A stretch of DNA of 64,000 nucleotides, taken from contig NC_018025.1 of the NCBI RefSeq assembly GCF_000266945.1, forward strand, positions 5,770,001 through 5,834,000, in the 5' to 3' direction. A program made the translations under genes and the position numbers. The notes below the pieces were generated by a model, which made no database searches, had not been told where the DNA came from, and saw only the letters and a list, made by a program, of their open reading frames with translations. Shown piece after piece: positions 15,034-22,220 of this stretch; the stretch's first letter is position 1, and the number at the start of each line of letters is the position of its first letter. Origin of the DNA: Desulfomonile tiedjei DSM 6799. GTDB taxonomy: Bacteria; Desulfobacterota; Desulfomonilia; Desulfomonilales; Desulfomonilaceae.

Positions 15034-16548
15034 CTTGAAGGCTGTCCAACACTGTGTTGTGGCAGACTGCTGTTGGTCATGTTGGTATTCGAGCTCACGG
15101 CTTCAGTTTGCGTTTCGACTTTGATGCGCTTCTAAGTGAATATAGGTGCTTGGGCTGTTGCTGCCGGTTGATCCAGGGGTACGAGTTCGTACCCAATGAG
15201 AGACGCTTGCCAGGTAAGGTATTTTATCTTGGCCTCTCGGTTTCTTTCGAGCAGGTAAGTCTCTCCGAGATCTTTGAAATGTACTCCGTATTTGAGTACA
15301 TGGTAAATGGTTTTAAGGATTTTGTGGGCTACTGCGATTATGGCCTTTTTGGCCCCCAAGCGCGCTTTCAGGGCGTAATATTTGGCCCGGTAGTAGGATC
15401 CTCGTGCCTTGATTGCCGGCCAGGCTACTTCAACCATGATGGTTTTTAGGTGGTTCTTTTTGACAGGGCTCTTGCCACTGAATCGCTTGCCACCGCTTTG
15501 GTTGTTTCCGGGAGAGAGGCCACACCAGGAAGCGAGGGCATGGGCGGTGGGGAACTCAGTCAGGGTTGGGCCTATCTCGGCCAATATGGCATGGGAGGAA
15601 ACCGCGCCTACACCGGGAATCTCTTCGAGCCGCCGGATCGCTTCCTGAGCGTCTCTCATTACTTCCTTGATACGGGATTCAAGGATAGAGATTTGGGTCT
15701 CTAGGTTTTCGATCGTGTTGAGCAAAAGAGACAACAGGAACCGGTGATGGGCCTCGAAGAAGCCTTGGACAGAGCGATGGAGCTCCGCTGCCTTGTCTTG
15801 CAGCGATCCTCTCAGACAATTTTCAACCTCGGAAATCGTAGGGGAATTGTCGCCTGAGATTAAGAGTTTCATGAGGTTGCGGCCCGTTGCGCCGAACAGG
15901 TCGGATACCACGGAATCGATTTTAATGTTTGACTGTTGAAAGAGCTTGTGAACGCGGCGTTGGAAATCCCCGAGGTCTTCTTTGTAGTTTCTTCTCATTC
16001 GGGTCAAATCACGCCACTGTCTTTGATGTTTCGGAGGAATAAAGGCGGCCTTGAGCAGGCCGTGACGCAAGAGTCCGGCTAGCCATCTGCTGTCGCTGAT
16101 GTCGGTCTTATGGCCTGGAACATTTCTCATGTGTCGGGCATTCACCAAGATAACCTTGACGGAATCTTCAAGGACGTTATGAACAGGAGTCCAATATGGT
16201 CCTGTACTCTCCATCGCAATTACAGGACACTCTCGTTCCAGGAGCCATTCCTTGAGTTTGATAAGGTCATCTGTGAATGTTTGGAACTCACGCATTTCGG
16301 ATTGCTCTGTACCGGAACTGTCTGAATACAACAGACACGCTGACACGGAATTTTTGTGGACGTCCAATCCGCACGATATCTCGTGCACGACTGATATGGT
16401 AGTGTTATTCTGGTTTCTTGAGGGCATGACACGCCTCCTAGTGTTGTTTGATTTCATCTCATACTAGGCAGGTAGCCATGCTCTCATCTCAGTTCAAGGG
16501 ACTTTCATCCTTCGTTGTGGCGCTCTTCGCCATGGGAGTTGGTATAAT
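15034..16548 (-). mobile_element. IS110-family insertion sequence (ends approximate)
   Basis: The extent is inferred. It runs from the end of the long palindrome to the point where sequence shared with the repeat at 29469 resumes (actccgctcagaacacctca at about 16549). IS110 elements lack terminal inverted repeats, so the ends cannot be read with certainty. The ~120 bp upstream of the transposase start and ~100 bp downstream are non-coding; in characterised members one such end encodes the bridge RNA. Confidence 0.5.
15132..16427 (-). CDS. IS110 family transposase (DEDD recombinase, 431 aa)
   Basis: The N-terminal DEDD RuvC-like domain shows CGLDVHKNSVSACLL (first Asp), VIAMESTGPYW (Glu) and HKTDISDSRWLAGLL (third acidic cluster). 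The C-terminal Tnp_20 domain shows EEIPGVGAVSSHAILAEIG and ASWCGLSPGNNQSGGK, which supplies the catalytic Ser region. Start ATG 16427 follows TAGGAGG at seven bases; the upstream in-frame ATG 16457 lacks this. Full length and without stops, so it is probably functional. It cuts and joins DNA guided, in studied members, by an element-encoded RNA. It sits between two dispersed-repeat copies. Confidence 0.93.
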   Translation of the reverse strand: MPSRNQNNTTISVVHEISCGLDVHKNSVSACLLYSDSSGTEQSEMREFQTFTDDLIKLKEWLLERECPVIAMESTGPYWTPVHNVLEDSVKVILVNARHMRNVPGHKTDISDSRWLAGLLRHGLLKAAFIPPKHQRQWRDLTRMRRNYKEDLGDFQRRVHKLFQQSNIKIDSVVSDLFGATGRNLMKLLISGDNSPTISEVENCLRGSLQDKAAELHRSVQGFFEAHHRFLLSLLLNTIENLETQISILESRIKEVMRDAQEAIRRLEEIPGVGAVSSHAILAEIGPTLTEFPTAHALASWCGLSPGNNQSGGKRFSGKSPVKKNHLKTIMVEVAWPAIKARGSYYRAKYYALKARLGAKKAIIAVAHKILKTIYHVLKYGVHFKDLGETYLLERNREAKIKYLTWQASLIGYELVPLDQPAATAQAPIFT

Positions 16549-20844: not shown

Positions 20845-21164
20845 CATTGAGGCATTTCGGGAACAAGGGGGAGTTGCCCGGCAAAAGTGCCGTCAGCCCC
20901 GAAAATGGCAAGATCTCACCATAATTCAGGAAGATAGCGTTTCGTAGAAGCATAAGCTGAATTCTGTTGACGGGGAGGCGAGGTTTTCATACAAGGCTGA
21001 AAACAGAGAGCCTGTTGTTGTCACCTGAGGCATTGCGCGGGGAGACTCCTTGTCAGGATCGGAAGCGGGGGTGAAGCCGGCAACGAGCAGATCGCGAACA
21101 ATCTGAAAGCCTTGTAATCTGTTTTAATCCGTCTTGACAATACAAGTCCAGGGGAGGCAGAGAA
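20845..21164 (+). promoter_or_regulatory. Long, possibly structured 5' leader of the Trp/Tyr-rich protein gene
   Basis: This is a ~600-bp gap (20570-21164) whose distal half looks foldable. Segment 1 pairs catttcggg with ccccgaaaatg around an inner hairpin, cggcaaaagtgccg. Segment 2 is closed by tacaaggct (20990) and agccttgta (21108), enclosing ~110 nt. No known riboswitch signature is recognised. A strong ribosome binding site (GGGGAGG) precedes ATG 21165. A role as a leader RNA is inference. Confidence 0.35.
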
Positions 21165-22220
21165 ATGTATTGCCGCGAATTCGCTTTAGAGCAATTAGAG
21201 GAGAGGATCGTTCTGGACGCTGCAGTAGTTGACACTCATGATGTTCAGGACAATGCATCTGATGGCACTCAAGTGGACAGTCTAGGCTGGGTTTATGTAA
21301 GTAACGGGTGGTGGTACAACAACGATGGAGGAGGCTGGTGGTACAACCAGTATAGCACTTGGTGGTGGAACGAATATACCGACTGGTGGTATATGAACGC
21401 GAGCGGATTCGATTGGTGGTATCACGGGACATACGAATATTTTGCAAACGAGCATAGCACCGGAGCGTGGTTTTGGTACGACGCCGCCGATGACTATACA
21501 TGGGAGCCGGTAGGAAGGTGGTTTTATTCCTCCGACGGTTACTGGGAGTGGAGTGATTTCAGTAATCACGTCTATTTATCCTATTATGATTACACTTATT
21601 TGTCCGACGACTACTACCTGTACAATGAACTCACCTATTCCAACCTGGCAACATGGTACATGTATCCGGGAAGCGACAACTGGTGGAGCGGTGGCGCATT
21701 GTGCGTGGCCGTTGCAGATAATTCGGACGACTGGATGGTGCAAGCGCTGGACTATGCCAACCTGGACGTCGTATGCATGGAATTCGATTTTGAATATGAC
21801 TCTTTTAGTGAGATTGTGAGCTCTATCGGTTGGGTCTCCTGGTTCTACGGGACTACGATTGATTATTTGGCCATTCTGGGCCATGGGTATACTTCAGGAG
21901 ACGGAATGTGCATAGGAGATTGGATTACTACCGATAATTATTGGTATTTCTATTCCGATTTCGTGGAGTTGAGCTCGTATATGGACTATTACGGGCAAAT
22001 TCAGCTCTATCACTGTTATGTCGGACAAGCATGGGACATGCTCGATGATATTGCCGATTGGACCGATACTTACATCTTCGCCAATACCGATAGCACCGTA
22101 TATCACTATCCCACCGGTTCATTCTGGATATCAGATGGAGATGACAGCACATTAACATTTGAGTACAAAAGCTATTATTACGCTAACTACGTCAACCTTT
22201 TCACATGGGATTATTACTAA
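21165..22220 (+). CDS. Trp/Tyr-rich LEPR-type protein with C-terminal DUF4347/caspase-like domain (351 aa)
   Basis: Three parts are visible. Residues 8-20 (LEQLEERIVLDAA) are a LEPR-XLL-type N-terminal motif seen at the start of many large surface proteins. Residues 40-130 are packed with aromatic motifs such as GWVYVSNGWWYNNDG and WWWNEYTDWWY, with 18 Trp between positions 42 and 129; these loosely resemble choline-binding or GW-type repeats. Residues 175-315 resemble DUF4347: LAILGHGYTSGDG puts His240 in a GHG, and QLYHCYVGQ gives Cys284, as in the His/Cys dyad of caspase-like clan CD folds. There is no ordinary signal peptide. A surface protein with a possible peptidase-like domain is inferred; function unknown. 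Confidence 0.75.
   Translation: MYCREFALEQLEERIVLDAAVVDTHDVQDNASDGTQVDSLGWVYVSNGWWYNNDGGGWWYNQYSTWWWNEYTDWWYMNASGFDWWYHGTYEYFANEHSTGAWFWYDAADDYTWEPVGRWFYSSDGYWEWSDFSNHVYLSYYDYTYLSDDYYLYNELTYSNLATWYMYPGSDNWWSGGALCVAVADNSDDWMVQALDYANLDVVCMEFDFEYDSFSEIVSSIGWVSWFYGTTIDYLAILGHGYTSGDGMCIGDWITTDNYWYFYSDFVELSSYMDYYGQIQLYHCYVGQAWDMLDDIADWTDTYIFANTDSTVYHYPTGSFWISDGDDSTLTFEYKSYYYANYVNLFTWDYY

Follow-up and report, generated by a model that had tools for sequence, protein, structure and literature searches.

The P0001 locus

The window analysed here comprises 64,000 nucleotides of Desulfomonile tiedjei DSM 6799, that is, bases 5,770,001–5,834,000 of a 6,500,104-base contig in a two-contig genome of 6,527,027 bases. 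The gene studied, P0001, encodes a protein of extreme composition (30 W, 48 Y, 56 D+E, 1 K and 3 R in 351 aa); its features are given in Table 1. Residues 42–129, with 18 Trp, are the Trp-richest 88-aa stretch of the protein (binomial P 6e-19 against a mean of 0.96% W in the window's remaining frames of >300 aa). The first-pass annotation of this DNA had reported an ORF at 21165–22220 with these 18 Trp, a GHG motif containing His240 and an LYHC motif containing Cys284, and all of these particulars were reproduced. The neighbours of P0001 encode DUF169, NADH:flavin oxidoreductase, MoaE-like and Ysc84-like proteins and were judged ordinary, and by its position P0001 was judged to be a single gene among them. 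A transposase-like ORF, presumably of the IS110 type, lies upstream of P0001 on the minus strand (window 15132–16457).

Table 1. Features of P0001 and its ribosome-binding site, with positions in the window
Feature	Position	Strand	Remarks
Shine–Dalgarno-like GGGGAGG	21151..21157	+	7 nt upstream of the P0001 ATG; similar GGAGG-type sites at many paralogues
P0001, whole gene	21165..22220	+	ATG start, 351 aa; LEPR motif, aromatic module and DUF4347-type domain
LEPR/Planc_extracel-like motif, residues 4–21, REFALEQLEERIVLDAAV	21174..21227	+	Putative export/sorting signal, by inference
Aromatic octamer array, residues 42–90	21288..21434	+	Aromatic triplets at 49, 58, 66, 74 and 84
~53-aa aromatic repeat unit, one copy, residues 86–143	21420..21593	+	E 3.9e-17; model iterated on the same proteins, so not independent
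DUF4347-type domain, predicted caspase-like fold, residues ~170–335	21672..22169	+	Profile, alignment, predicted structure
His240, predicted catalytic His after strand β3	21882..21884	+	25/26 domains; aligns with Tce1 His186
Cys284, predicted nucleophile after strand β4	22014..22016	+	26/26 domains; aligns with Tce1 Cys240

Comparison with the rest of the genome showed that 17 other ORFs align to the N-terminal ~137 aa of P0001 with 36–56% identity, and that one paralogue, L021, is alignable over the full length with 40% identity. Judged by sequence, P0001 is coding, since these 17 ORFs align N-terminally and L021 aligns throughout; a lack of both homologues and coding signal, which the first-pass annotation had named as grounds for dismissing the gene, was thus not what we found. 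That the ORF arose by chance or has decayed, its composition only imitating domains, is barely conceivable: such a reading could point to P0001 being one very large composition outlier restricted to its lineage, and to the plus strand giving no sigma-70-type promoter match for it, but it has to contend with motif and spacing conserved across the 17 paralogues, with the full-length paralogue, with a good ribosome-binding site and with zero internal stops.

A structured RNA leader 5′ of P0001 was considered and rejected, no Rfam match at gathering score being found in the window. Nor was any found at gathering score at 17 LEPR loci of the genome (a set leaving out L014, L016 and L019). The P0001 leader gave one chance-level match and a folding z-score of −0.42, and its sequence is unique within the genome. 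An upstream element common to the paralogues was likewise rejected, as BLASTN at E ≤ 0.01 among 22 upstream stretches linked only L011, L012 and L014; k-mer counts of the paralogue upstream stretches were at shuffle level or barely over it. P0001 had no PHROG match.

The N-terminal motif

The N-terminus of P0001 carries LEQLEERIVLDAA at residues 8–20. It had been described as LEPR-type, which was borne out as a relationship, but P0001 itself scored 15.4 bits at residues 6–26 with the LEPR-8K model NF012209, below the cut-off of 17, and in this it departs from the LEPR-XLL family definition. Six residues of the motif (E9, L11, E12, R14, V16 and L17) are invariant in 23 aligned rows. The Pfam family Planc_extracel (PF07595) gave weak matches in three of 18 family members (best E 0.0086; 15 bits for L015 against a cut-off of 25.5) and none for P0001, the N-terminus of which resembles, by eye only, the RRLxxExLExRxLLA-type Planc_extracel motif (consensus from PMC8567305). 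No hydrophobic signal peptide was visible by eye in P0001.

According to excerpts of PMC8567305, the Planc_extracel motif has been proposed to direct the export of surface proteins in planctomycetes; in one species of this group, proteomics detected 20 of 52 motif carriers, and eight of the 20 were seen in the SDS fraction alone. LEPR-XLL (NF012209) and Planc_extracel (PF07595) proteins have an N-terminal pattern of the same kind as that of P0001. They are often very large and extracellular, whereas P0001 is short, and P0001 has an aromatic module that is absent from the other LEPR-XLL/Planc_extracel proteins examined.

The aromatic module and its likeness to OCRE domains

The module consists of two repeat types, an octamer array of aromatic triplets followed by a unit of ~53 aa. 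Pairing of aromatic residues at a lag of 8 exceeded that in shuffled sequences in P0001 (p 0.0008) and in L009 (p 0.0002), and the values of L022 and L020 were reached by 0 of 5000 shuffles; the array is shorter in L021, L023, L024 and L025. Between one and three copies of the ~53-aa unit were detected in 19 of 20 scanned proteins, the exception being L027, with a model iterated on the same proteins. This unit matched no PDB sequence, and the module matched no named family above cut-off. In the full-length model of P0001, pLDDT over the module region was mostly 24–39.

When the module profile was compared with PDB sequences, the three best matches were OCRE domains of RBM10 and RBM5, with E values of 0.025–0.084 that are not significant alone. 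P0001 shows the layout by which OCRE domains are defined, tandem imperfect octamers with aromatic triplets (excerpts of PMC5127646). The Pfam OCRE model (PF17780), however, gave no match to P0001 at E ≤ 10, the family cut-off of 24.7 bits thus not being reached. Weak matches to it were found in four of 18 module-family members (best E 0.0017), and a search across the whole genome returned none at E ≤ 0.1. At that threshold the OCRE model matched in six of 99 relatives and also in two of 14 control genomes. In other genomes of the phylum it weakly matched loci L068 and L069, at what we take to be Rhs-type core motifs, which calls for caution with bacterial OCRE assignments.

An RBM10 segment scored 15.4 bits with the module profile, as against 9.2 for the reversed segment and a median of 1.2 and a maximum of 14.7 for 5000 shuffles, while rotated segments in which the octamers are kept reached up to 15.6 bits. 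By these sequence controls, the similarity between RBM10 and the module goes narrowly beyond composition. True OCRE homology was considered and left unproven, the shuffle control having been passed narrowly and the octamer-keeping rotations scoring as high as they did. We call the module OCRE-like in layout only, because membership of the OCRE family was not found and the margin over the shuffles is narrow; the likeness has probably arisen by convergence. The module shares with the OCRE domains of RBM5 and RBM10 (PF17780) the imperfect octamers with aromatic triplets, but it is Trp-rich, bacterial and apparently exported, and it is followed by a ~53-aa repeat without a PDB match.

A module family with many passengers

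TBLASTN of P0001 against its own genome returned many matches, mainly over the N-terminal ~135 aa. An alignment of 18 module regions including P0001 (A3), used as a profile on this genome, matched 23 ORFs at E ≤ 0.01; in 21 the LEPR motif is followed by the module, and in two only the motif part matched. A motif-only profile (A8; 23 rows, 18 of them from module-bearing proteins and hence biased towards these) found 27 places, which leaves 25 ORFs when a 21-aa frame and a match at E 3 are set aside. The module thus stands directly after the motif in 21 of the 25 LEPR-motif ORFs detected in the genome. The first-pass annotation had missed this 21-ORF family because the genome was needed to see it. 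Two of the module-bearing ORFs, L015 (G000:C1:5109572) and L016 (G000:C1:6421788), are identical in their 426 aa and lie more than 1.3 Mb apart.

The passengers, which lie on the C-terminal side of the module, are varied. DUF4347 is found above cut-off in L009, L020, L021 and L064 and below it in P0001; ELWxxDGT repeats above cut-off in L010, L013, L020 and L025 and below it in L022; cadherin-like, Big_9 and PKD domains, again above cut-off, in L011, L017, L018, L019 and L023; FG-GAP in L011, RTX repeats in L014 and a polysaccharide deacetylase in L017, all three above cut-off; DUF5050 in L023; and a sub-threshold CAP-like PgrA/YkwD domain in L024. The same scan gave weak matches only for L015 and none for L027 and L065, and it covered 213 aa of L012. 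As classified from sequence, the passengers are of extracellular types.

In the module tree, L021, L023, L024 and L025 form one clade (support 100/99) with P0001 outside it, in a run whose bootstrap had not settled. In the DUF4347 tree, P0001 and L021 pair as sisters (98/93); the program flagged unusual composition in precisely these two rows, and this could have helped the pairing. Since the two proteins pair by their DUF4347 domains while their modules are split by the 100/99 branch, a reshuffling of modules and passengers is probable.

At a further place in the genome (L066 and L067, G000:C1:5966662-5977261), a 445-aa LEPR ORF overlaps a longer frame, the continuation of which lies further downstream in a different frame and has DUF4347 at its end; this may be either a single frame-shifted gene or a pair of genes. 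Nearby are frames with ankyrin-type repeats, recognized by eye, and a further DUF4347.

In pneumococci, proteins with unrelated passengers are anchored through aromatic choline-binding repeats. By analogy with these and similar aromatic-repeat anchors, in which one module is common to many surface proteins with unrelated passengers, the present module may serve as a shared surface address, because one module accompanies many passengers beside an export-type motif. Cell-wall-binding Pfam families gave no reported match at E ≤ 10 in 18 module-family members, in a search whose HMMER filters drop most weak matches. The best reading is that of a newly evolved surface-attachment module that would display many passengers. 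Aromatic arrays are also often carbohydrate or polyproline binders, and the module could instead be an outward-facing binder of a foreign polysaccharide, a partner cell or a substrate, with the hold on the surface coming from elsewhere and the passengers acting on what is captured. The presence of deacetylase and adhesin-like passengers is in keeping with this, as is the binding of polyproline tails by OCRE domains through exposed aromatic residues (excerpts of PMC5127646). We nevertheless consider an outward-facing binder rather unlikely, given one module on very different passengers and always beside the LEPR motif: a common address fits better than a common substrate because the module always adjoins the motif while the passengers differ.

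Distribution of the module and the older LEPR–DUF4347 order

A motif pattern run on 84,980 species genomes matched 136 stretches, five of which were confirmed as relatives, and none of the five showed the module by eye; the pattern requires ExLExRIVLD, so that a module without that motif would escape it. The LEPR relatives retrieved include metagenome-assembled genomes labelled Desulfomonile. Among 59 relatives, the A3 profile matched five, only at model positions 2–45 (the LEPR part), and the module was found in none. In a sample of 395 genomes from across the phylum, that of D. tiedjei among them, with up to ten candidates scored per genome, three matched: the D. tiedjei genome and two relatives, the latter in the LEPR part only. 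No confirmed match to the module was found in viral contigs, and none in plasmids. The only other member of the genus in the set, an 86% complete draft, showed neither motif nor module.

With the motif profile, LEPR proteins were found in eight of the 59 relatives, all of the same family. Of 31 LEPR places in the relatives, 14 were scanned, and DUF4347 follows the motif in 12 of these and the module in none. The order LEPR then DUF4347 was also seen in L032, in two proteins of L060, in L062 and in L063, but not in L059, a place that also figures among the 14 as L091. In the D. tiedjei genome, L026 is the only one of the LEPR ORFs examined with DUF4347 directly after the motif. Its domain groups with that of a relative (99/97), and the other seven domains of this genome, including that of P0001, form a group of their own (98/94), with a program warning of long branches among these seven. 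These sequence comparisons suggest that the LEPR–DUF4347 order is the older one in the family and that the module came to that position later, because most of the relatives' LEPR proteins examined carry DUF4347 behind the motif and the module was seen in none of them. In one relative (L090, G008:C65:70531-74718), three LEPR–DUF4347 genes lie near one another and their DUF4347 domains form one clade (99/98); on sequence grounds, the older architecture has expanded locally there.

The same distribution bears on a different role for the module, that of an export or assembly part that replaced DUF4347 beside the LEPR motif and does the same job, for instance in processing or in docking at the exporter. 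The relatives' LEPR proteins (DUF4347 in 12 of 14, module in none of 14) and the single L026 of this genome would agree with such a replacement, but five module proteins also have a C-terminal DUF4347. Because these five have both, the two are not simply interchangeable, and we regard an export or assembly role as unlikely.

A broader scenario, which we put forward tentatively and consider less likely than not to hold as a whole, is that a new aromatic domain arose in one Desulfomonile lineage, displaced DUF4347 beside the LEPR motif and spread to at least seven kinds of passenger as a surface-display system of its own; the octamer array would then be an OCRE-like aromatic β-sheet that evolved separately in bacteria, and the system could belong to an unusual envelope structure such as the collar. 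The genus has a collar-like invagination of the cell wall (PMC7773648, in part). The connection of module and collar is speculation prompted by the organism, and it is disfavoured because the module was not found in the second Desulfomonile genome of the set. Titles and abstract openings of the literature on LEPR-XLL, DUF4347, the D. tiedjei collar and bacterial OCRE nowhere describe the module.

The DUF4347 domain and its His/Cys pair

The C-terminal domain had been likened to DUF4347, and this relationship holds. P0001 scored 17.5 bits (E 0.0036) with PF14252, below the cut-off of 24.6, and is not among the six places that pass it; paralogues do pass, L021 for one with 39.6 bits. The P0001 domain is alignable with the DUF4347 family, including the conserved His and Cys blocks. 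Twenty-six domains were compared (eight from this genome, 17 from relatives and one from a viral contig), several of them only 14–30% identical to P0001. The one viral row, L079 (positions 75–614 of a contig in the viral collection), has Asn for His and is possibly inactive; some scans of viral contigs returned no further DUF4347 row, and L079 was the one found.

Modelled in full length, P0001 gave a poor result (pLDDT 40.8), in which the C-terminal order of strands and helices puts His240 directly behind a strand that ends at 238 and Cys284 directly behind one that ends at 282. The domain of L062, modelled from seven alignment rows that include the P0001 domain, gave a pLDDT of 81.1 and a pTM of 0.81, with His71 after strand 63–69 (β3) and Cys114 after strand 103–112 (β4), the residues being counted by hand. 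Foldseek with the L062 model placed Tce1 (PDB 9qpe chain G) first with E 7.7e-6; ranks 2–5 were taken by a short-chain dehydrogenase (from E 2.9e-5), and legumain, caspase-3 and C11 peptidases came after them. In VIA, Tce1 reached Z 14.2 (3.0 Å over 155 residues), ahead of SAVED-CHAT (8.5), caspase-3 (8.0), C11 peptidase (7.4), TPR-CHAT (7.1) and the RTX cysteine protease domain (6.6); two type II dehydroquinases stood at 6.7 amid the caspase-like rows, and the program warns that a Z under 8 may reflect a common arrangement only. The low-confidence P0001 model itself gave Tce1 at Z 9.2 over 137 residues (175–325), the next row being 6.3. Its Foldseek search returned nothing at E ≤ 0.001, with dehydrogenases leading the list. 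The dehydrogenase matches of both models were rejected as reflecting the common α/β layout, because Tce1 stands far above the other VIA rows. Structure prediction with fold comparison, the check that the first-pass annotation had advised, thus gave a DUF4347 protein as the best match for the L062 model and, in VIA, for the P0001 model.

Sequence profiles agreed with this, 9qpe_G, annotated as a DUF4347 domain-containing protein, being matched by profile A4 at E 1e-3 and by profile A7 at 0.016; A4 also matched a designed TIM barrel, with an E value (0.003) not far from that for Tce1. A4 aligns the His and Cys of the family with chain positions 77 and 131 (counted by hand), which correspond to residues 186 and 240 of Tce1 if the 201-residue chain is the region 110–310 given as resolved in excerpts of PMC13323088. 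The same excerpts name His186/Cys240 as the putative dyad of Tce1 and report an active-site effect for Tce2 and none for Tce1; a part of PMC8262886 also holds a remark on DUF4347 in Tce1. Tce1 (PA0256) of Pseudomonas aeruginosa, a DUF4347 protein, shares with the domain described here the predicted fold and the alignment positions of His and Cys. It is a type VI cargo effector within Hcp3 rings, with 15–18% identity in the fold alignments. Profiles A4 and A7 also match strongly the solved ECT2-like protein ECT2L (PDB 11xu chain A1; A7 E 1e-12), with Asp for the His and the Cys position in a gap; the domain appears to be inactive in this protein.

These comparisons support, at the level of models, the assignment of the C-terminal domain of P0001 to a divergent DUF4347 with a caspase-like fold and with His and Cys at the positions of a putative dyad. 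The arrangement that defines clan CD, His after β3 and Cys after β4, is one of predicted structure, seen in the L062 model and in the low-confidence model of P0001, and His240 and Cys284 would lie close together given the model topology and the alignment to Tce1. Of the earlier suggestion of a clan CD peptidase-like domain, the predicted fold and the placement of the two residues stood, and peptidase activity would be a further step. The domain could alternatively be a non-catalytic scaffold or binder in which His and Cys are kept for structure. The Asn of L079 is consistent with such a role, and for Tce1, the closest solved protein, excerpts of PMC13323088 report no activity. Set against this, all 26 domains retain the Cys and 25 of them the His, at the dyad positions of clan CD, although several are only 14–30% identical to P0001, so a purely structural role is rather unlikely.

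A surface-held peptidase as the favoured explanation

Taken together, P0001 is probably a cell-surface protein that joins a Trp/Tyr module to a caspase-like cysteine peptidase domain. In the full proposal, for which we infer localisation, module ligand, catalysis and substrate, the LEPR/Planc_extracel-like motif would direct the protein into the export route of its class, export by LEPR-type motifs being itself a proposal in the literature. The Trp/Tyr module, by analogy with aromatic-repeat anchors, would then hold the protein non-covalently on a component of the producing cell's envelope, and the DUF4347 domain, going by its predicted fold, would act as a cysteine peptidase through His240 and Cys284, on itself, on other LEPR proteins or on extracellular proteins. 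We put the chance that all of this is correct at about even.

In one genome, a toolkit of surface proteins has apparently been rebuilt, the motif being kept, the neighbouring domain replaced and the module spread to unrelated passengers. The analysis also links the uncharacterized DUF4347 of LEPR proteins to a predicted caspase-like fold with a conserved His/Cys pair, a link that is directly testable in recombinant protein. Of the two, we judge the genome-wide and apparently young aromatic module to be more interesting than the peptidase-like domain.
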